Origin: Betaproteobacteria bacterium
GTDB lineage: Bacteria; Pseudomonadota; Gammaproteobacteria; Burkholderiales; SG8-39
NCBI GenBank assembly: GCA_029865405.1
Contig: JAOUGZ010000089.1
Location: forward strand, 1-8,518
Length of the DNA stretch: 8,518 nt
Direction of reading: 5' to 3'
The notes under the pieces were generated by a model. It was not told the DNA's origin, searched no databases, and saw nothing but the letters and a program-made list of their open reading frames with translations. Positions 1 to 8,518 of this stretch are shown one piece after another (positions within the stretch are counted from its first letter, which is position 1; every line of letters begins with the position of its first letter). The translations under genes and the position numbers were made by a program.

Positions 1-193
1 AGGGATGCCAGGCGAAGAACGCGGCGAGGCTCGCCTCGCCGCGCTCGAAGAAGGCGCCGGCGGTGAACGTGAGAAAGCCCGTGAGCAGCAGGAAGATCAC
101 CAGGAACACGTAGGCCACGGGCGAGGCGAAGTACGACCCAAGCTCGCGCTTGGCGATGGTGCGGATGGCGTGCCAGGCGCTCATGGCCTTCAT
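1..193 (-). CDS. ABC-2 type transporter permease, N-terminal part (runs off the left edge)
   Basis: This is the membrane subunit of an ABC-2 exporter; only the first 64 codons lie in the window. The protein begins MKAMSAWHAIRTIAKREL, an amphipathic cytoplasmic segment typical of ABC-2 permeases. After GSYFASPVAYV comes a hydrophobic first membrane helix at about residues 25-46 (VFLVIFLLLTGFLTF), then the start of an external loop. The ATG at 191-193 overlaps the TGA of the ATPase gene in an ATGA arrangement, so the two are almost certainly translated in coupling. The family resembles the permeases paired with GldA/NosF-like ATPases. The substrate cannot be told from this fragment. No stop or frameshift is seen in the visible part. 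Confidence 0.8.
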   Translation of the reverse strand, partial: MKAMSAWHAIRTIAKRELGSYFASPVAYVFLVIFLLLTGFLTFTAGAFFERGEASLAAFFAWHP

Positions 194-903
194 GACTTCA
201 CCGTGTCGGGGAGGGTAAGGCGGCGGAACACCTCGTCGAGCGGCCGGCCGAGCTCGTCCGGCGTGCCGCTCGCCACGATGCGGCCGCGGTCGATGATGAT
301 GGCGCGGGTGCAGACGGCGTCGACCTCCTCGAGGATGTGCGTGGAGAAGATGATGGACTTGGTCCTGCCGAGCTCGCGGATGAGGTTACGCACCTCGTGC
401 TTCTGGTTCGGGTCGAGGCCGTCGGTGGGCTCATCGAGGATCAGCACCTCGGGGTCGTGGATCAGCGCCTGCGCGAGGCAGGTGCGGTGCCGGTAACCCT
501 TGGACAGCGTGTCGATCGACTGGTGCAGCACCGAGCCGAGGAAGCACAGCTCGACGACGCGGCCGAGCGCCTTCTTGCGTGCGCCGCCCGCGAGGCCGCG
601 CATCTCTGCGGCGAAGCTGAGAAACCCGTGCACCGTCATGTCGGGGTAGGAAGGCGCGGCTTCCGGCAGGTAGCCGATCAGGCGCTTCACGGCGAGCGGC
701 GCCTCGGCGACGTCGTGGCCGCCGACCGACACGCGGCCGCTCGTCGGCGGGATGAAGCCGGTGATCATGCGCATGGTGGTCGACTTGCCGGCGCCGTTCG
801 GGCCGAGAAAGCCCAGCACCTCGCCGCGCTCGACGGCGAAGGAGACGCCGTCCACGGCGCGCTTCGCGCCGAACGCCTTCACCAGGTTCTCGATACGGAT
901 CAT
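190..903 (-). CDS. ABC transporter ATP-binding protein (GldA/NosF-like ABC-2 ATPase)
   Basis: This is the cytoplasmic ATPase of an ABC-2 type export system, 237 aa, a normal length for the family. Visible motifs are Walker A GPNGAGKST (residues 34-42), Walker B VLILDEPT (153-160), the D-loop GLDP (162-165) and the H-loop histidine at 189 (STH). Two positions differ from textbook ABC ATPases. The Q-loop position reads GYLPE (78-81), with Glu in place of Gln, and the signature reads LSKGYRHR (133-140) rather than LSGGQ. Both are common in the GldA-like branch, so the enzyme is probably active. Upstream of the ATG there is a modest purine-rich site (GGCAGGCGG). Its end overlaps the permease start by 4 bp, so the two subunits form one operon. 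The exported substrate is unknown. Confidence 0.9.
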   Translation of the reverse strand: MIRIENLVKAFGAKRAVDGVSFAVERGEVLGFLGPNGAGKSTTMRMITGFIPPTSGRVSVGGHDVAEAPLAVKRLIGYLPEAAPSYPDMTVHGFLSFAAEMRGLAGGARKKALGRVVELCFLGSVLHQSIDTLSKGYRHRTCLAQALIHDPEVLILDEPTDGLDPNQKHEVRNLIRELGRTKSIIFSTHILEEVDAVCTRAIIIDRGRIVASGTPDELGRPLDEVFRRLTLPDTVKS

Positions 904-993: not shown

Positions 994-1935
994 ATGCTCA
1001 AGCTCGGAAAGTTCCTGGCCGTATTGCTGTTCGCGGGCGCCGCGGCGGCGCAGCCCAACCTGAAGATCATGATCCCGGCCAACCCCGGGGGCGGCTGGGA
1101 CCAGACCGGGCGCAACCTGGCCGCCGCGATGCAGAGCGCGAAGCTCGTGTCCTCGGTGCAGTTCGAGAACAAGGGCGGCGCCGCGGGCACGATCGGCCTC
1201 GCGCAGTTCGTGAACGCCGCCAAGGGCGACCCCAACACCATGATGATCGGCGGCATGGTGATGATCGGCGGCATCCACCTCAACCAGTCGCCGGTGAACC
1301 TCGGCATGGTGACGCCGGTGGCGCGGCTGACGAGCGAGTGGGAGGTCATCGTGGTGCCCGCGGGCTCGCCCCACAAGTCGATGGCCGACCTGGTGAAAGC
1401 GTTCAAGGCCAACCCCGGCGCCGTGTCCTGGGGCGGCGGCTCGGCGGGCGGCACCGACCATATCCTGGTCGGCCTGATCGCCAAGCAGGTCGGGGTCGAC
1501 CCGGTGAAGATCAACTACGTGCCGTTCAAGGGCGGCGGCGAGGCGATCGCGGCGATCGTCGGCGGCCACGTCACCGCCGGGGTGTCGGGCGTGGGCGAGT
1601 TCGCCGAGCAGATCAAGGGCGGGCGCATGCGCGCGCTCGGCGTCTCGGCGCCCGAGGCAGTGGACGGCGTTCCGTCGCTGAAGTCGCAGGGCATCGACGT
1701 CGAACTGGGCAACTGGCGCGGCATCTTCGCCGCGCCCGGGATCAGCGGCGCGCAGCGCGACGCGCTGGTGAAGCTGGTGAAGGACGCGACCGAAACCGCG
1801 GCGTGGAAGGAAACGCTCGCCAGGCTCGGCTGGACCGGCGTGTTCCTCGGCGGCGATCAGTACGCGAAGTTCCTCGAAGAGGACACCCGGCGCATCGCGG
1901 GCATCATCGACTCGCTCGGCATCAAGCGCAAGTAG
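994..1935 (+). CDS. tctC: TTT-family periplasmic solute-binding protein (TctC/Bug)
   Basis: This is the extracytoplasmic binding subunit of a tripartite tricarboxylate transporter, which delivers a carboxylated solute to TctAB. The protein has 313 aa, usual for the family. It starts with a Sec signal peptide (MLKLGKFLAVLLFAGAAAA, likely cleaved before Q20). Family hallmarks follow: IPANPGGGWDQTGR (residues 27-40), which contributes to the ligand carboxylate loop, and NKGGAAGTIG (59-68). The ATG has a good GGAGGA site 7 nt upstream. It is followed after 7 bp by tctB and then tctA, so this is a complete three-gene transporter rather than one of the many orphan Bug proteins of Betaproteobacteria. 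The ligand could be citrate, another di- or tricarboxylate, or an aromatic acid; the sequence does not decide. Confidence 0.92.
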   Translation: MLKLGKFLAVLLFAGAAAAQPNLKIMIPANPGGGWDQTGRNLAAAMQSAKLVSSVQFENKGGAAGTIGLAQFVNAAKGDPNTMMIGGMVMIGGIHLNQSPVNLGMVTPVARLTSEWEVIVVPAGSPHKSMADLVKAFKANPGAVSWGGGSAGGTDHILVGLIAKQVGVDPVKINYVPFKGGGEAIAAIVGGHVTAGVSGVGEFAEQIKGGRMRALGVSAPEAVDGVPSLKSQGIDVELGNWRGIFAAPGISGAQRDALVKLVKDATETAAWKETLARLGWTGVFLGGDQYAKFLEEDTRRIAGIIDSLGIKRK

Positions 1936-1942
1936 GCGCGGC

Positions 1943-2431
1943 GTGCGCCGCTCCGGCGCCCAGATCGCGCTCTCGCTCGGGGTGCTCGCGCTCGGCGCGG
2001 GCATCGCCGTCGGCACGTCGTACCTGCCGTCGCAGGGCGGCTACGCGCGCATCGGCCCGAACTTCATCCCGGCGGTGGTGGCGTTCGGCCTCATCGTCTC
2101 GGGCGCCTTTCTCCTGTACGAGGCGCTGACCGGCGGCTGGCGCAGCATGCCCGAGCCGGCCGAGCGCACCGAGCACGCGCTGCACTGGGGCGCCTTCGCC
2201 TGGATCAGCGCCGGCCTCATCGCGCACATGGCGCTCATGCAGTGGGCCGGGTTCGTGCTCGCGGGCGCGCTGCTCTTCACCTGCGTGGCGCGCGGCTTCG
2301 GCAGCGCGCGCTGGCTGCGCGATGCGGCCATCGGCCTGGCGATCGCGCTCGGCGTGTTCCTGTTCTTCGTGCGCGTCCTGAACGTGAGCCTGCCGGGCGG
2401 CTGGCTCAAGCCCCTGATCGGCGGGCTGTAG
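1943..2431 (+). CDS. tctB: TTT transporter small membrane subunit (TctB)
   Basis: This is the small, poorly conserved membrane subunit of the transporter, 162 aa, typical of TctB. Hydrophobic segments lie at about residues 7-25, 41-60, 83-117 (probably two adjacent helices) and 126-145. The first loop has the family-like GPNFIPAVVAFGL stretch (39-51), matching the GPxxxP motif after the first helix of TctB proteins. The start is a GTG 7 bp after tctC; no ATG fits, and the ribosome-binding site is weak, which suggests coupling to tctC translation. Its TAG stop directly abuts the tctA ATG with no intervening base. Identification rests on topology, size and position between tctC and tctA more than on sequence identity. 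Confidence 0.85.
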   Translation: MRRSGAQIALSLGVLALGAGIAVGTSYLPSQGGYARIGPNFIPAVVAFGLIVSGAFLLYEALTGGWRSMPEPAERTEHALHWGAFAWISAGLIAHMALMQWAGFVLAGALLFTCVARGFGSARWLRDAAIGLAIALGVFLFFVRVLNVSLPGGWLKPLIGGL

Positions 2432-3931
2432 ATGGAGGCTTTCGCCGGCCTGCTGCAGGGCTTCGACGTCGCGCTGAAGCCGATCAACCTGCTGTGGGGC
2501 TTCATCGGCGTGACGCTCGGCACCTTCGTCGGCGTGCTGCCGGGCGTCGGGCCGGCGCTCACGGTGGCAATGCTGCTGCCGCTCACCGCGCAGCTCGATC
2601 CGACCGGCGCGCTCATCATGTTCGCCGGCATCTACTACGGTGCGATGTTCGGCGGCTCGACCACCACCATCCTGCTCAACACGCCGGGCGAGTCCGCCTC
2701 GATCGCCACCGCGCTCGAAGGCAACAAGATGGCGAAGGCGGGGCGCGCGGGCCCGGCGCTCGCCACCTGCGCGCTCGGCTCGTTCGTCGCGGGCACCATC
2801 GCCGTCGTGCTGCTCACGCTGCTCGCACCCGTCGTGGTGGAGGTGGCGCTCAAGTTCGGCCCGGCGGAGTACTTCGCGCTGATGGTGTTCGCGTTCACCA
2901 CGGTGGCCGCGGTGCTCGGCGCCTCGACCACGCGCGGCCTGGCGAGCCTGTTCGTCGGCCTGATGCTGGGGCTGGTCGGCATCGACAGCCAGACCGGCCA
3001 GCCGCGCTTTGCCTTCGGCGTGCCCGAGCTGCTCGACGGCATCGACGTGGTGGTGCTGGCGGTGGGCCTGTTCGCGGTCGGCGAGACGCTCTACGTCGCC
3101 GCCTACACCAGCCGCCTGCCCGAGACGCTCGAGAAGATGAGCGGCTCGATATGGATGTCGGTGCAGGACTGGAAGCGCTCCTGGCCAGCTTGGCTGCGCG
3201 CCACCGCCATCGGTTTTCCGTTCGGCTCGATCCCGGCGGGCGGCGCGGAGATCCCGACGTTCCTCTCGTACTCGCTCGAGAAGAAGCTGAGCAAGCATCC
3301 GGAGGAGTTCGGCAGCGGCGCGATCGAGGGCGTCGCCGGTCCGGAAGCGGCGAACAACGCCTCCGCCACCGGCGTGCTCGTGCCGCTGCTCACGCTCGGG
3401 ATTCCCACGTCAGCCACCGCGGCGATCCTGCTGACCGCGTTCCAGAACTACGGCATCCAGCCCGGGCCACTGCTCTTTCAGATCCAGCCGGATCTGGTGT
3501 GGGGCCTCATCGCCAGCATGTACGTCGGCAACGTGATCCTGCTGGTGCTGAACCTGCCGCTGATCGGCATCTGGGTGAAGGTGCTCACCATCCCGCGGCC
3601 GGCGCTCTACGCCGGCATCCTCGTCTTCGCCACGCTCGGGGCGTACAGCCTGCACCAGTCGTGGGTCGACCTGGCGACGCTCTATGTCTTCGGGCTGCTC
3701 GGCTTCGTCATGCGGCGCTTCGACATCCCGGTGGCGCCGGCGGTGATCGGCCTGATCCTCGGGCCGCTTGCGGAAACGCAATTCCGCCGCGCGCTCTCCA
3801 TCAGCCAGGGCGATGCGAGCGTGTTCGTCACGCAGCCGATCTCGGCGACGTTCCTCGCCGTGACTGCGCTGCTGGTGATCGTGCCGTGGCTGGTGCGCCG
3901 GCGGCGCCGGCGCACCAAAGCCGCAGCCTAG
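2432..3931 (+). CDS. tctA: TTT transporter large membrane subunit (TctA)
   Basis: This is the large channel-forming permease of the TTT system, 499 aa and full length, driven by an ion gradient in known members. The two family repeats are both intact. In the first half, [19 protein letters not shown] (residues 34-52) is followed by [20 protein letters not shown] (68-87). In the second half, [15 protein letters not shown] (263-277) is followed by [12 protein letters not shown] (323-334). About ten or more hydrophobic segments are spread over the protein. The ATG directly follows the tctB stop. The cytoplasmic tail ends with six consecutive arginines encoded by a strong inverted repeat (3891-3917). 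The stop codon abuts the stop of the converging lipoprotein gene, giving TAGCTA. Confidence 0.93.
3891..3917. terminator. Strong GC hairpin at the 3' end of tctA, candidate bidirectional transcription barrier
   Basis: Two perfect 13-base arms (TGGTGCGCCGGCG at 3891-3903 and its reverse complement at 3905-3917) flank a single central base. In RNA the inner pairs open to leave roughly a 10-12 bp GC stem. It sits in the last codons of tctA, about 15 bp before the abutting stop codons of tctA and the converging lipoprotein gene. It could therefore act on transcripts from both sides. There is no U-tract in either direction, so an ordinary intrinsic terminator is not proven; it could equally block 3' exonucleases. 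Confidence 0.45.
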
Positions 3932-4384
3932 CTACGGGCGCAGATAGGCGTAACCCTCGCGCTGCTGCAGACGCGCGATCTCCGCCACGCCGGAGGGCAC
4001 GAGGGTGACCTCGGGCAGGAAGTCCTTGGCGTCCTGCTTGGTACGCTGGAGCGTGATCTCGCACAGGTCGAACTTCACGCCGCGCTCCTTCAGCGTCTCG
4101 ACCGGGACATTGAAGGGGTTCCCGTTCTTGTCGCGCGCGCCCTTCTTCAGGAAGCCGATGCCCTTCGAGTGCGTCACCACGACGATCTTTGCCTTGGGAT
4201 TGACCGCGAGGTGGTTGTTGATGTTGCGCAGCGCGTCGACCGCCTGATCGTCGCCTTCGTTCACGTGGTAGATCACCTTGTCCTCGGCGACGGTGGCCTT
4301 GCGGTCCATGCCCATCGTGCCGCAGCCCGACAACGTTGCCGCACCTACCGCTCCCGCCAGTGCCAGTCCATAAAGCGTCCTCAT
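3932..4384 (-). CDS. DsrE/F-like (COG1416-type) lipoprotein
   Basis: This is a 150-aa protein made of a lipoprotein signal and one small alpha/beta domain. The signal (MRTLYGLALAGAVGAATLSG) ends in the lipobox LSGC with Cys21; the next residue is Gly, so the outer membrane is likely. From about residue 35 the sequence follows the DsrE/DsrF-like COG1416 pattern. It has VIYHV, NNHL, VVVTHSKGIGFL, GVKFDLC with a lone cysteine at 108, then LPEVTLVPSGVAEIARLQ and a terminal GYAYLRP. DsrE-type proteins handle persulfide sulfur or sit in sulfur-oxidation loci; the activity here is inferred. A GGAGGG site precedes the ATG. The gene is divergent from the ECF sigma gene, whose anti-sigma partner carries a paralogous copy of this domain, and converges on tctA with no spacer. 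Confidence 0.8.
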   Translation of the reverse strand: MRTLYGLALAGAVGAATLSGCGTMGMDRKATVAEDKVIYHVNEGDDQAVDALRNINNHLAVNPKAKIVVVTHSKGIGFLKKGARDKNGNPFNVPVETLKERGVKFDLCEITLQRTKQDAKDFLPEVTLVPSGVAEIARLQQREGYAYLRP

Positions 4385-4515
4385 CCTTCCCTCCTTCCAG
4401 GTTATGGCGGGATTCAGTCCCCGCTGCCATCCGTACCGGCGCGCGCGCCGGAATATTCCCGGGGCGGCCCTGGAATAGAATCGTCGCAGGCGCGGTAATT
4501 GGGGGAGATGGGACC
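4385..4515. promoter_or_regulatory. Divergent control region of the DsrE-like lipoprotein and the ECF sigma gene
   Basis: This 131-bp region must hold promoters in both directions. It contains a perfect 10-bp palindrome GGAATATTCC (4450-4459), which gives a GGAATA hexamer on each strand, and a second GGAATA at 4472-4477. GGAA-type hexamers are typical -35 elements of ECF sigma factors, so autoregulation is plausible. An alternative plus-strand sigma-70 -10 box TAGAAT lies at 4476-4481. The ribosome-binding site of the sigma gene is the G-rich stretch at 4501-4507. Part of the region (4437-4449) is GC-only and uninformative. Confidence 0.45.
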
Positions 4516-5076
4516 TTGTCCGACGACGAGAAGCGCGCGCGGTTCGAGCGCCTGGTGCTGCCGCACCTCGACGCCGCGTACAGCCTCGCGACCTGGCTGG
4601 TGCGCGACGACGCCCAGGCCGAGGAAGCGGTGCAGGAAGCCTGCCTGCGCGCCTTCCGCTACTTCGATGGCCTGCGCGGCGACGAGGCGCGGCCGTGGCT
4701 CCTCGGCATCGTGCGCAATACCTGCTACACGTTGCTGCAGCGCGCCCGCCAGGACGGCGCGCCGCTGCCGTTCGACGAAGAGGGCTGCGGCGAGGACGCC
4801 GTGGCCGCCGGGGCGGTCGTCAGCTTTCCGCTCAACCCGGAGGCGGCGGCGATTCGCGAGGCCGACCGGGAGAGCGTGCGCGGCGCCCTGCGCGCGCTGC
4901 CGGTCGAGTTCCGCGAGGCCGTGGTCCTGCGCGAGATCCACGGCTTCAGCTATCGCGAGATCGCAGCCGCGTGCGAAGTGCCCATCGGCACCGTCATGTC
5001 TCGCATCGCGCGCGGCCGCCGCCTGCTGCAGCACGCGCTCGGCGCGCGCGCCGAGACCAAGGACACCGGCACATGA
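4516..5076 (+). CDS. ECF-type (sigma-70 family, group IV) RNA polymerase sigma factor
   Basis: This alternative sigma factor has 186 aa from the chosen start. The sigma-2 region covers about residues 10-76, with WLVRDDAQAEEAVQEACLRA in the core-binding part and RPWLLGIVRNTCY at its end. The sigma-4 region covers about 117-172: RALPVEFREAVVLREIHGFS, then the helix-turn-helix YREIAAACEVPIGTVMSRIARG. There is no sigma-3, as expected for ECF factors. I chose the TTG at 4516 because a G-rich ribosome-binding site precedes it and the encoded start (LSDDEKRARFE) fits the family. In-frame ATG codons further upstream (4336) would run back through the control region into the divergent gene. The stop overlaps the anti-sigma start as ATGA, so the two are co-translated. 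The target regulon is not shown; sox genes are the obvious candidates. Confidence 0.9.
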   Translation: MSDDEKRARFERLVLPHLDAAYSLATWLVRDDAQAEEAVQEACLRAFRYFDGLRGDEARPWLLGIVRNTCYTLLQRARQDGAPLPFDEEGCGEDAVAAGAVVSFPLNPEAAAIREADRESVRGALRALPVEFREAVVLREIHGFSYREIAAACEVPIGTVMSRIARGRRLLQHALGARAETKDTGT

Positions 5077-5774
5077 ACTGTCCTGACGCCGTCCGCCTCA
5101 TGAACGCGTACGTCGACGAAGAGCTCGACGCCGCCAGCGTGCTCGCGCTGGAGGCGCACTTGCGTGGCTGCGCGCGTTGCCGCGCGCGCGCAGACAGCCT
5201 GCACGCGCTTCGCTCGGGCGTGCAGCGCCATACCGAATTTCGCATGGCGCCGACGTCGCTGCGCGATAAGGTGCAGGCGCGACTCGGGCACCTGGAATCC
5301 GTGCCGGCGGGCGCGACGCGCAGGCGCGTGGCGATGGGCGCGGCGGCGCTGGCGGTGGTGGCGCTCGCGGCCTGGACACTGCGCGGCACGCTCGAGCCGG
5401 CGCCCGCGAACGTAGCGCGCGGCACGGGCAAAGTCGTCTACCACGTATCCAGCAGCCAGAATGCCGGCGCCGCGCTGCGCACCCTGCGCAACCACCTCGA
5501 GGCCTCGCCGGAAACGAAAGTCGTGGTCGTGGCGCATAACGAGGGCGTCGATTTCCTGCTGCGCGGCGCACGCGATGAGTCGGGCCAGCTCTTCGCCACG
5601 GCCGTGCGGCAGTTCAAGGACCGCGGCGTGGACTTCCGCGTCTGCAACAACACGCTGGTGCGCCGCAGGATCGACGGCGGCGGCATCCTGCCCGAAGCGA
5701 CCCTGGTACCTTCCGGGATCGCCGAGATCAGCCGGCTGCAGGAGCGCGAGGGCTACACTTACATGCGCATGTAA
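5073..5774 (+). CDS. Zinc-type transmembrane anti-sigma factor fused to a periplasmic DsrE-like domain
   Basis: This 233-aa protein probably holds the neighbouring sigma factor inactive. Residues 1-45 form a zinc-binding anti-sigma domain with HLRGCARC (H29, C33, C36, the HxxxCxxC motif) and C3 as a likely fourth ligand. One membrane helix follows at about 86-103 (VAMGAAALAVVALAAW), after a basic RRR that keeps the N-terminus inside. Residues 119-233 would lie in the periplasm and are a DsrE/COG1416-like domain: VVYHV, RNHL, VVVVAHNEGVDFL, GVDFRVC with Cys191, LPEATLVPSGIAEISRLQ and GYTYMRM. By hand, 47 of the last 91 residues are identical to the divergent lipoprotein with no gap, including the cysteine. 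It overlaps the sigma gene by 4 bp and lies directly upstream of sox. Sensing of a sulfur compound or thiol redox state is an inference. Confidence 0.85.
   Translation: MNCPDAVRLMNAYVDEELDAASVLALEAHLRGCARCRARADSLHALRSGVQRHTEFRMAPTSLRDKVQARLGHLESVPAGATRRRVAMGAAALAVVALAAWTLRGTLEPAPANVARGTGKVVYHVSSSQNAGAALRTLRNHLEASPETKVVVVAHNEGVDFLLRGARDESGQLFATAVRQFKDRGVDFRVCNNTLVRRRIDGGGILPEATLVPSGIAEISRLQEREGYTYMRM
5759..5774. repeat. 16-bp perfect palindrome over the anti-sigma stop codon
   Basis: TTACATGCGCATGTAA reads the same on both strands. It encodes the last residues of the anti-sigma factor and includes its TAA stop. It lies about 160 bp before the soxY start, at the upstream edge of the sox promoter region. 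It could be a dimeric regulator site; as an RNA hairpin it would have few usable pairs. A chance origin through the repeated ATG codons is possible. Confidence 0.4.
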
Positions 5775-5934: not shown

Positions 5935-6399
5935 ATGCAACAAACTCGCAGATCCGTCATCAAGGCAGGGGGCGCGCTCGGGCTGCTCGCGTTAGCCGGC
6001 ACCGCCCTGCTCAAGCCCGGCCGCGCGCACGCGGCCTGGAACCAGAGCGCTTTCGAGGCGAAATCCGCCATCGACGCCATGAAGGCGCTCGGCATGGGCA
6101 ATGCCGAAGAGAGCAAGGACATCGTCATCCGCGCCCCCGACATCGCCGAGAACGGCGCGGTGGTGCCGATCGACGTCACCAGCAACATCCCCGGCACGAC
6201 GAGCATTTCCGTGTTCATCGAGAAGAACCCGTTTCCGTACACGGGCACCTTCGACTTCGCGGCGGGCTCGGTGCCCTTCGTGCACCTGCGCGCGAAGATG
6301 GGCGAGACCAGCCCGGTGCGTGTGGTCGTGGCCGCGGGCGGCAAGCACTACACCACCGCCAAGGAAGTGAAGGTCACTATCGGCGGCTGCGGCGGCTGA
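5935..6399 (+). CDS. soxY: SoxY, thiosulfate-oxidation sulfur carrier subunit
   Basis: SoxY is the periplasmic carrier that holds sulfur intermediates covalently on a C-terminal cysteine while the other Sox enzymes act on it. The protein has 154 aa. It begins with a Tat signal peptide: twin arginines at 5-6 in TRRSVIKAGG, a hydrophobic stretch, and likely cleavage after AHA at 33. This fits the known Tat export of SoxYZ. The C-terminus reads VKVTIGGCGG, the hallmark swinging-arm GGCGG with Cys152. I chose the ATG at 5935 because GAGGAGGAGG lies immediately upstream and the Tat motif then sits at the N-terminus. An in-frame ATG at 5884 would add 17 residues with no ribosome-binding site. It is the first gene of soxYZAX, 160 bp after the anti-sigma gene and 13 bp before soxZ. 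Confidence 0.95.
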   Translation: MQQTRRSVIKAGGALGLLALAGTALLKPGRAHAAWNQSAFEAKSAIDAMKALGMGNAEESKDIVIRAPDIAENGAVVPIDVTSNIPGTTSISVFIEKNPFPYTGTFDFAAGSVPFVHLRAKMGETSPVRVVVAAGGKHYTTAKEVKVTIGGCGG

Positions 6400-6412: not shown

Positions 6413-6730
6413 ATGGCAGACCCGATGAAGATCCGCGCCACCGTGGAAGGCGACGTCACCGACGTGCGCGTGCTGATGGCGCATCCGATGGAAACCGGCC
6501 AGCGCAGCCAGGGCGGCAAGAAGGTGCCGCTGCATTTCATCCAGAACATCACCGCGCAGCTGAACGGCAAGACGGTGTTCAGCGCCGACATCAGCCAGGC
6601 GATCTCGCGCAACCCGGTGTTCGCCTTCAAGGTGAAGGGCGCAAAGGCCGGCGACAAGATCACGGTGATCTGGAAGGACAACAAGGGCGAATCGCGCACG
6701 GACGAGACGACGGTCCGCGGCGGTTCCTGA
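6413..6730 (+). CDS. soxZ: SoxZ, partner subunit of the SoxYZ carrier
   Basis: SoxZ is the small beta-sandwich partner of SoxY in the thiosulfate-oxidation carrier complex. The protein has 105 aa, normal for the family. Recognisable stretches are MKIRATVEGDVTDVRVLMAH near the start, then METGQR, KKVPLHFIQNI and FAFKVKGAKAGDKITVIW. There is no signal peptide, as expected, since SoxZ is exported folded with SoxY through the Tat system. There is no cysteine. The gene lies 13 bp after soxY with GAGGAGAAC before its ATG, and 54 bp before soxA. Confidence 0.95.
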   Translation: MADPMKIRATVEGDVTDVRVLMAHPMETGQRSQGGKKVPLHFIQNITAQLNGKTVFSADISQAISRNPVFAFKVKGAKAGDKITVIWKDNKGESRTDETTVRGGS

Positions 6731-6759: not shown

Positions 6760-6784
6760 CCGGATTGAACTGGAGGAGGTGAAG

Positions 6785-7600
6785 ATGAGACAAGCGCTCA
6801 TGCGGGGTCTTGGTGCGGCAGTCGCCGCGGCGTCGTTGCCGCTGGCGATGGCGCAGACCGAGGATCCGGTTGCCGCGGACTTCGACAAGTTCCGGGCGAT
6901 CATGGAAGAGGCCAATCCGGCGGAATTGTTCGATGCAAAAGGCGAGCAGTTGTGGAAGACGCCGGGTGGGCCGAAGAAGGCTTCGCTCGAAAAGTGCGAC
7001 CTCGGGCTCGGGCCCGGCGTGGTGAAGGGCGCCTACGCGCAGATGCCGCGCTACTTCGCCGATGTCGACCGCGTGATGGACGCCGAGGCGCGCATCGTGC
7101 ACTGCATGATCACGCTGCAGGGATTCAAGTACGAGGACCTGGCGAAGAAGCCCTTCAGCAGCGCGACCGCCACGCCCGACCCGGTGTCGATCACCACGTA
7201 CGTGGCCGCAAACTCCGCGGGAATGAAATTCGCGCCGCCGCAGTCGCACCCGAAGGAGAAGGCGGCCTACGCGGCCGGCAAGGAGGTTTTCTTCTATCGC
7301 GCCGGGGCGTTCGATTTCTCCTGCGCGAGCTGCCACGGCGTGGACGGCCAGCGTATCCGCACGCAGCCGCTGCCCAACTTCACCAAGCCGGAGCAGGCGA
7401 TCCGCGCGGTGCAGGGCTGGCCGGGCTACCGCATGACCGGCGGCGTGATGCACACGTTGCAATGGCGCCTGAACGACTGCTACCGCCAGCAGCGCTTCCC
7501 CGAGCCGGGCTATACCTCGGAGATGCTGAGCGCGCTGCTCACCTATCTCACCGTCAACGCCCAGGGCCAGGAGTACAAGGGCCCCGGTATCAAGCGCTAG
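6785..7600 (+). CDS. soxA: SoxA, c-type cytochrome subunit of SoxAX (monoheme type)
   Basis: SoxA with SoxX forms the periplasmic cytochrome that oxidatively couples thiosulfate to the SoxY cysteine. From the ATG at 6785 the protein has 271 aa with a Sec signal peptide, likely cleaved after AMA at 23. Only one heme motif is present, CASCH (C180, C183, H184). The N-terminal half has single cysteines at 71 (EKCDLG) and 107 (IVHCMI) instead of a CxxCH, as in monoheme SoxA proteins where a disulfide replaces the first heme. The active-site heme-ligand cysteine is C232 in NDCYRQQRFPEP, fully conserved. The ATG was preferred over the GTG at 6779, which falls inside the ribosome-binding site GGAGGAGGT. 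It is followed 10 bp later by soxX. Confidence 0.93.
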   Translation: MRQALMRGLGAAVAAASLPLAMAQTEDPVAADFDKFRAIMEEANPAELFDAKGEQLWKTPGGPKKASLEKCDLGLGPGVVKGAYAQMPRYFADVDRVMDAEARIVHCMITLQGFKYEDLAKKPFSSATATPDPVSITTYVAANSAGMKFAPPQSHPKEKAAYAAGKEVFFYRAGAFDFSCASCHGVDGQRIRTQPLPNFTKPEQAIRAVQGWPGYRMTGGVMHTLQWRLNDCYRQQRFPEPGYTSEMLSALLTYLTVNAQGQEYKGPGIKR

Positions 7601-7610
7601 GAGGCATGCC

Positions 7611-8216
7611 ATGAAGATCGGTACCGCAGTAATCCTGGCGGCCGCCACGGCGATTCTTGCCGCCTGCGCGGCCCTGCAGTCCAGCCCCCGCGACGAGGCG
7701 TTGGCCCTGATGCAGCGCGACTTTCACGCCCAGGGCATCGCCGGCATGGACCGGCTGAAAGAGGACCCCGTCCAGGCTGCGTGCAACAAGTACAACGACA
7801 ACCCGCCGGCGGATCTGGCCAAGAAGCTGCAGGGCGAGCAGTATGCCGGCGTCAAGTGGCCGGCGGACGGCAAGCTCCTCGGCGACTGGAAATCCGGCGA
7901 GAAGATCGCGCAGAACGGCCGCGGCATGGCCTGGAGCGACAAGGGTGGCGTCGGCGGCAGCTGCTACAACTGCCACCAGATCGACCCGGCGACGACGGCG
8001 TTCGGCACCATCGGGCCGAGCCTGAGCCAGTTCGCGAAGCTGCGCGGCTACGGCACGGACATCCAGCGCTACGCCTACTCCAAGATCTACAACGCCAAGG
8101 CGTACAGCATCTGCTCGCAGATGCCGCGCTTCGGCCACGCCGGCGCGCTCACCGAGCAGCAGATGAAGGACATTACGGCGCTGCTGATGGACCCGGCCTC
8201 GCCGGTCAACCGGTAA
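7611..8216 (+). CDS. soxX: SoxX, c-type cytochrome subunit of SoxAX, with lipoprotein-type signal
   Basis: SoxX is the electron-accepting partner of SoxA. The protein has 201 aa and a single class I c-type heme motif, CYNCH (C118, C121, H122), followed by GTIGPSLSQF. The likely distal ligand is Met171 in SQMPRFG. Before the heme domain lies a roughly 90-residue extension, so this resembles the longer SoxX paired with monoheme SoxA. The signal ends in LAAC (L16-C19), a lipobox, so membrane anchoring is possible. C58 and C168 are two further cysteines that could pair. AGGAG precedes the ATG, 10 bp after the soxA stop. The last 11 bp overlap the end of soxB on the opposite strand. Confidence 0.92.
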   Translation: MKIGTAVILAAATAILAACAALQSSPRDEALALMQRDFHAQGIAGMDRLKEDPVQAACNKYNDNPPADLAKKLQGEQYAGVKWPADGKLLGDWKSGEKIAQNGRGMAWSDKGGVGGSCYNCHQIDPATTAFGTIGPSLSQFAKLRGYGTDIQRYAYSKIYNAKAYSICSQMPRFGHAGALTEQQMKDITALLMDPASPVNR

Positions 8217-8518
8217 GGCGCGGCACGCTGGGCGTCAAAGGGGCGATCGCGCGCCGCGCGCGCAGGTAGCGCGCGGCAAGTTCCCACACCGGCTCGCCGC
8301 TCGCCCCTTCGGCGACCGGCGCCCAGCCGGCCACCTTGTAGCGCTTCGTCGCCTCGAGCGGACGGTCCTGCAACCGCATGTCGGAGATGCGCGCGCCGAT
8401 GTCGGCGCGCGGATTGCAGGCATAGGTCATCCCGCCCACCCGCACCATGTCGCCGCCCTGCTGGAGGTAGGCATCCGGATTGAAGGCGTTGTCCGCGATG
8501 TCTTCCAGGATCGCCTTG
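8206..8518 (-). CDS. soxB: SoxB C-terminus, dimanganese sulfate thiol esterase (runs off the right edge)
   Basis: SoxB is the periplasmic hydrolase that releases sulfate from the SoxY-bound thiosulfate adduct; it belongs to the 5'-nucleotidase family. Only the last 103 residues are in the window. They begin with KAILEDIADNAFNPDAY, followed by QQGGDMVRVGGMTYACNP, then GARISDMRL, YKVAGWAPVAEG and GEPVWELAARYLR, all close to the conserved C-terminal SoxB pattern. The catalytic metal-binding N-terminal domain lies outside, so activity cannot be judged. The gene converges on soxX rather than following it on the same strand, and its TGA (8206-8208) lies inside soxX. Confidence 0.92.
   Translation of the reverse strand, partial: KAILEDIADNAFNPDAYLQQGGDMVRVGGMTYACNPRADIGARISDMRLQDRPLEATKRYKVAGWAPVAEGASGEPVWELAARYLRARRAIAPLTPSVPRLTG
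8253..8277. terminator. GC hairpin just past the soxX stop, inside soxB
   Basis: GCCGCGCGC (8253-8261) and GCGCGCGGC (8269-8277) form a perfect 9-bp stem with a 7-base loop, 37 bp after the soxX stop on the plus strand. Nothing else between soxX and soxB could end the sox transcript within the window. There is no U-tract, and the region is rich in GC alternation, so chance pairing is a real alternative. Confidence 0.3.

Follow-up and report, generated by a model that had tools for sequence, protein, structure and literature searches.

An anti-sigma factor with a predicted periplasmic DsrE domain beside sox genes: a candidate sensor of reactive sulfur

The sensing of inorganic sulfur by sulfur-oxidizing bacteria is poorly known, and an ArsR-type DNA-binding repressor has been proposed for it, going by the portion of the report considered here (PMC10451225). 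In the same portion, SoxR is described as sensing sulfane sulfur via cysteine modification (PMC10451225), and part of another report presents SoxT1B as the signal unit of SoxR in Hyphomicrobium (PMC11582611). SoxR and sHdrR, both ArsR-type repressors of sulfur-oxidation genes, would have sox control in common with the system described below; however, as far as the compared parts of these reports go, they combine a DNA-binding repressor with a transporter-like signal protein (PMC10451225, PMC11582611), whereas in the present locus the DsrE fold is part of an anti-sigma factor in the membrane.

Another point of comparison is provided by ECF26-type pairs (Sinorhizobium meliloti RpoE1/RpoE4 and Starkeya novella sigE), which likewise lie beside sulfur-oxidation genes in the excerpts consulted (PMC3511301, PMC6527743). 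According to these, RpoE1/RpoE4 are activated on thiosulfate and taurine metabolism and control sulfite oxidation (PMC3511301), and the S. meliloti pair controls its own operon, as is predicted for the pair reported here (PMC3511301, PMC6527743). The ECF26 promoter element GGAAT at −35 fits the present locus, but its −10 element reads CGTC instead of GGTA (PMC6527743); moreover, the described ECF26 target is sulfite dehydrogenase rather than Sox or DsrE, and the compared portions of the descriptions mention no DsrE domain (PMC3511301, PMC6527743). The class I zinc anti-sigma factors RsiW, RslA, ChrR, and RsrA share with the present one a zf-HC2 domain and an ECF sigma gene directly upstream, but differ in the C-terminal part, which is here a DsrE domain. 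RsiW also has one membrane helix, as does the protein studied here. Fold and cysteine position are in turn common to DsrE/TusD and MTH1491/ST0148-type proteins; unlike DsrE/TusD, which are cytoplasmic, the domains described here either follow an anti-sigma domain and a membrane helix in one fused protein or belong to an envelope lipoprotein. No described anti-sigma family with a DsrE sensor was found in the open-access literature, judging from the search listings.

The anti-sigma factor in question is encoded in an 8,518-nucleotide stretch of DNA from a Betaproteobacteria bacterium (contig JAOUGZ010000089.1), hereafter the window. Its gene (5073–5774, plus strand; 233 aa) overlaps by ATGA with that of an ECF sigma factor (4516–5076, plus strand; 186 aa, TTG start; Pfam Sigma70_r2 and r4_2, TIGR02937 over cut-off). 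It was confirmed that one and the same protein comprises a zinc-type anti-sigma domain (zf-HC2, residues 3–37 with C3, H29, C33, and C36; 39.9 bits vs. a Pfam cut-off of 22.2), a membrane helix (residues about 82–106), and a predicted periplasmic DsrE domain (residues 119–233) that contains Cys191. The DsrE-like C-terminus, which a sequence-only reading of this DNA had placed at these residues, is borne out by the PF02635 profile (34.2 bits, and 39.4 bits for the lipoprotein described below, vs. a cut-off of 22.7), by a structure model, and by fold matches. Its suggested periplasmic location likewise stands as a predicted topology, as 96 of 115 full-length fusions have more K/R residues before the helix than after it (equal numbers in 14, fewer in 5). 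The H-x3-C-x2-C zinc motif is present in all 115 fusions, and so is a single cysteine in the last 118 residues (the window's protein included); the same 118-residue test found exactly one cysteine in 119 of the 120 listed free DsrE proteins. In three MAFFT modes, the cysteine of fusions and free proteins shares its column with the DsrE/TusD cysteine (Cys in 125 of 126 rows; reference sequences were TusD/DsrE-model matches from genomes G001 and G674), and when the lipoproteins are aligned by profile with MTH1491 and ST0148, it again falls at the DsrE position. Comparison of the lipoproteins with TusD/DsrE by hhalign gave no usable match and did not confirm the column in this way, and TIGR03012, the TusD/DsrE equivalog, matched neither DsrE protein up to E=1. 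The lone cysteine noted earlier in both proteins (C191 and C108) is accordingly conserved and aligned with that of DsrE/TusD, and Cys191 is the candidate sensing residue.

Divergently from the sigma gene, the window encodes a free DsrE-domain protein (3932–4384, minus strand; 150 aa; Pfam DsrE E=7.7e-10) with the lipobox LSGC at positions 18–21 (Cys21, +2 Gly), the DsrE domain at about 36–150, and Cys108. It matches MTH1491 among PDB sequences (E=5.9e-13), and in its model the order of elements equals that of the anti-sigma DsrE domain except for two helices. A loose lipobox with G, A, or S at +2 recurs in 110 of 120 listed relatives. Thus, the earlier description of this gene as a lipoprotein with the anti-sigma factor's own type of C-terminal domain holds, and its hand count for the final 91 residues, 47 identities, proved exact (52 %; shuffled sequences gave a mean of 5.9 and a maximum of 16 in 2000 for the same residues).

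On the far side of this gene, tctC and tctA with a tctB-like open reading frame in between (994–3931) lie directly before the sigma/anti-sigma module and represent a tripartite tricarboxylate transporter; an ABC ATPase gene occupies 190–903 (minus strand). Downstream, soxY (probable start ATG 5935, 5935–6399; TIGR04488, scored on the longer open reading frame from 5884), soxZ (6413–6730; TIGR04490), soxA (6779–7600; TIGR04484), and soxX (7611–8216; TIGR04485) are all on the plus strand and over their cut-offs, and the C-terminal end of a convergent soxB (8206–8518, minus strand) leaves the window. This fragment covers positions 453–554 of the 556 of TIGR04486 and scores under the full-length cut-off (E=1.7e-37). 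The soxY gene is the first one 3′ of the anti-sigma gene, on the same strand and after a gap of 160 bp in which a terminator scan found no terminator, and soxYZAX may be read from the sigma promoter.

The fusion recurs, together with its free neighbor, beyond the window. A protein search returned 558 homologues, and both Pfam domains were present in 111 of the best 120 (the window's own counted). A single-query contig scan gave one locus (L001), which became the center for whole-genome searches; these detected full-length fusions in 6 of 74 genomes of the family of G001, in 7 of 399 genomes of an order sample (two already counted in the family), and in 1 of 369 genomes of a class sample (G001 again). 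Since at most seven candidates per genome were scored in the order and class searches, fusions may be missed in these samples. Viral contigs yielded no relative. Altogether, 11 fusion genomes and the window make 12 loci, in all of which the sigma gene adjoins the anti-sigma gene, and 11 of which have a free DsrE gene at a distance of up to about 4 kb, bearing out the expected recurrence with such a neighbor. In the same 11 loci, the gene divergent to sigma is of DsrE type: five belong to the type seen in the window (the window itself, G001, G371, G674, and G530; the signal peptide is a plain one in the last two), and six are of a second type (called by similarity in G372, G370, G488, and G452, by Pfam in G568, and by eye in G378). 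In G424, the divergent gene encodes a nucleotidase related to SoxB (180.5 bits against a SoxB-model cut-off of 550). SoxB-related 5′-nucleotidases below the SoxB cut-off were seen directly divergent from sigma at L063:1931–3700 and, behind a small DsrE gene, at L158:2456–4186.

The region between sigma and dsrE carries a divergent ECF-type promoter pair of the pattern GGAATA-N16-RGTH, which was read from seven loci and then applied to all 12 fusion loci. In the window, exact GGAATA-N16-GGTA matches are predicted as promoters of the lipoprotein gene (4434–4459, minus strand) and of the sigma/anti-sigma operon (4472–4497, plus strand; 18 bp before the sigma start). Strict sites precede the sigma gene in 10 of 12 loci, 12–20 bp before the start used, and the divergent gene in 11. 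The 174 kb analyzed contain these 21 strict sites and no others, each within a sigma intergenic region, compared to a mean of 0.78 and a maximum of 3 in 50 shuffles that preserve composition in 200-bp blocks but not dinucleotides. In the five loci outside the pattern reading, 7 of 10 sides carry a site. Ten of the 12 loci have both a DsrE-type divergent gene and a divergent site, the exceptions being G488 (no divergent site) and G424 (no DsrE-type divergent gene). Because of this divergent pair, control of the free DsrE gene by the sigma factor is predicted, which would require that the sigma factor indeed uses these promoters. A genome-wide regulon derived from the exact motif was dropped as the counts were not clearly above a backward-pattern control (20 vs. 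11 in six fusion genomes, 12 vs. 6 in the remaining five fusion genomes, and 17 vs. 10 in six other genomes).

With moderate confidence, we favor as the most likely reading that the anti-sigma factor is a transmembrane sensor of reactive sulfur and governs periplasmic sulfur carriers as well as, in part of the lineages, Sox. It builds on the architecture, fold, conserved cysteine, recurrence with a free DsrE, promoter-like pairs, and some sox sites as seen in sequences and model; the architecture is well supported and the regulatory wiring moderately so, while the signal chemistry is only proposed. In the resting state, the cytoplasmic zinc-type domain would hold the sigma factor. The single Cys191 might then be reached by reactive sulfur, for which sulfane sulfur (persulfide, polysulfide, or sulfur derived from thiosulfate) is the most likely candidate, or else a sulfur-loaded free DsrE protein might dock on the anti-sigma DsrE domain, upon which the anti-sigma factor would presumably let go or be cut. 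Once freed, the sigma factor would drive transcription of its own operon, of the lipoprotein gene on the opposite strand, and, in certain lineages, of sox operons. At the envelope, the lipoprotein may serve as a sulfur carrier or buffer, and it probably feeds back on its anti-sigma twin, presumably by direct contact; such feedback is at least as likely as upstream signaling, because, going by the promoter sites, the lipoprotein is in the first place predicted to be under sigma control. If true, sensing would be placed where Sox works, one fold would tie sulfur-carrier supply to sulfur sensing, and bacteria would have a new way to sense sulfur.

The same arrangement could also reflect docking without sulfur chemistry, that is, the free DsrE protein binds the anti-sigma domain as a hetero-oligomer and tunes its stability, with envelope stress or the supply of free DsrE as the true signal. 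DsrE-fold proteins are known as oligomers, and the 11 divergent DsrE-type genes, 10 of them with a strict site, as well as the finding that neighbors from several free lineages adjoin the fusion, speak in favor of this explanation. However, the cysteine is invariant in the fusions examined, which is hard to explain by pure docking, and a search of G424, one of the fusion genomes, with its query being the fusion revealed no free relative. We therefore regard it as unlikely.

In G674, the divergent site heads dsrE-soxY-soxZ-soxXA-soxB-sulfur transporter on one strand, with SoxY, SoxZ, SoxX, and SoxB over their cut-offs and SoxA just under (105.3 vs. 110). At L156:8845–14652, a sox operon headed by dsrE encodes a fused SoxX-SoxA protein together with a transporter of the Sulf_transp (YeeE) type, and a similar fused cytochrome was recognized by eye in G424 (L242). 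In G371 and G424, the sox operon is located on a different contig from the module and has a sigma-type site before soxY. Matrices trained without the genome being scored gave 30.8 (G424) and 15.2 (G371) upstream of sox, and at most 2.5 for the remaining 27 of 29 regions, a gap that was judged after seeing the scores, with shuffles keeping base composition only. High scores were thus obtained for 2 of 9 regions from fusion genomes (window included) and 0 of 20 from genomes in which no full-length fusion was found. The scan covers the 395 bp before soxY and reaches the true promoter only of operons that begin with this gene. Within this range, no sigma-type site was detected in five other fusion genomes that have sox (G001, G530, G568, G488, and G452), which speaks against a tight link to Sox, and the window's soxY has none of its own (matrix score −4.0). 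G371 holds four exact sites genome-wide, i.e., two at the module, one at sox, and one elsewhere.

Free DsrE genes are additionally found within sox clusters. At least two sox genes lie near the free DsrE gene in 10 of 40 further loci (taken roughly in listing order), with dsrE between soxZ and soxA in 8 of these 10. The order soxZ-dsrE-soxA inside a sox operon was observed at L164, L170, L171, L182, L183, and L189, and further at L191, L206, L213, L215, and L217. At L080, L081, L095, and L097, the free dsrE comes after soxB and a metallohydrolase gene, whose product is SoxH-related but below cut-off at L080. Nothing on DsrE lipoproteins in sox clusters was found in the open-access literature, as judged from listings; the sensor reading would suggest a role for them. 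In a separate case, L214 (G498) encodes SoxYZAX 72–77 % identical to those of the window, and soxB is followed by a DsrE lipoprotein gene; no sigma match was found within the 11.7 kb examined.

These findings bear on the possibility that Cys191 responds to general thiol or oxidative stress (hypochlorite, metals, electrophiles) and that its association with sulfur oxidation merely reflects coinciding habitats. SoxB was found in 8 of 11 fusion genomes and remained undetected in three (G370, G372, and G378), and most fusion loci adjoin non-sox genes such as acylphosphatase, helicase, or dnaE (named by eye), which speaks for this explanation. What renders it rather improbable are the sigma-type sites at sox in G424 and G371, the sox operon as divergent target in G674, and the free DsrE genes within sox clusters. 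As a SoxB match is present in any case in 60 of the 74 genomes of the family, SoxB is not enriched with the fusion, and a tight dependence of the fusion on SoxB was dropped, with only 8 of 11 fusion genomes having it.

A second, distant anti-sigma-DsrE class was encountered at 13 loci (L088, L089, L090, L091, L092, L093, L162, L180, L187, L193, L203, L210, and L212), its sigma factors sharing 28–39 % identity with first-class ones in the compared pairs. Nine of its anti-sigma factors were examined, and all have a hydrophobic segment, a DsrE-like end with one cysteine, and no zinc motif. The cysteine shares the alignment column of the first-class/TusD cysteine; the DsrE assignment rests on this position and on the alignment because Pfam support is weak (DsrE sub-threshold in three of six, none in the other three). 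Paired divergent GGAATA-N16-CGTC sites are present in 6 of 7 intergenic regions examined, by raw count, and absent from that of L203; their −10 element is close to the sulfite-sigma consensus GGAAT/CGTC given in the consulted part of a published description (PMC6527743). Of the 13 loci, 8 were chosen for a free DsrE gene and 5 for the anti-sigma factor; such a gene is present within 4 kb in 10 of all 13 and in 2 of those 5. A single origin of both fusion classes was not rejected (AU p=0.31).

The second class also weighs against sensing at the cytoplasmic zinc site in the manner of RsrA/ChrR, with the DsrE domain as anchor or relic. The window's protein does have C3/H29/C33/C36, and the RsrA model reaches 42.3 bits, though below its cut-off of 62.5; the good conservation of the DsrE domain in the fusions, cysteine included, and the retention of a DsrE-like end in a class without the zinc motif leave this explanation very improbable.

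Taken further, the sensor reading could define a new one-component class of transmembrane sulfur sensor, in which periplasmic sulfane sulfur is read by the anti-sigma DsrE domain and turns on envelope DsrE carriers and, in part of the lineages, Sox. Two or more widely diverged classes would belong to it, in many cases accompanied by a free DsrE partner and by a matched pair of ECF promoters in divergent orientation, and both DsrE proteins would communicate by sulfur transfer or mixed oligomers. This wider proposal is tentative, and we would stop short of calling it probable. New here are the divergent promoter pair, the sigma-type sites at sox, the free DsrE genes in sox clusters, and the second class; should the proposal be true, the promoter candidates GGAATA-N16-GGTA and one candidate cysteine would make for a testable system.

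As to the origin of the two domains, the fusion DsrE domains form one clade (SH-aLRT 99; bootstrap 100/SH-aLRT 99 in a second tree), and the free proteins encoded next to the fusions are dispersed over the trees (7 and 6 changes for 9 rows), with the finer branching unsure because the alignment has only 119 columns. Fusions and neighbors as one clade were rejected by the AU test (p=0.0006), a grouping chosen after seeing the tree. A recent duplication inside the signaling module, as proposed in the sequence-only reading, by which the anti-sigma factor took its C-terminus from the adjoining lipoprotein, would fit the 52 % identity and the adjacency, but is rejected under the model used, since the window's two domains are not sisters (AU p=0.0003), the fusions form one clade and the neighbors are scattered, and it can practically be dismissed.

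Free DsrE genes were furthermore seen as tandem pairs (L165, L186, L198, L199, L200, L201, and L204) and adjoining complex-I/Hyf-like membrane genes (L064, L065, L066, L067, L071, and L073; the same neighborhood at L157, L159, and L160). One member of this Hyf-like set was confirmed by Pfam and the others were assigned by eye, and it occurs beside free DsrE in genomes with and without the fusion.
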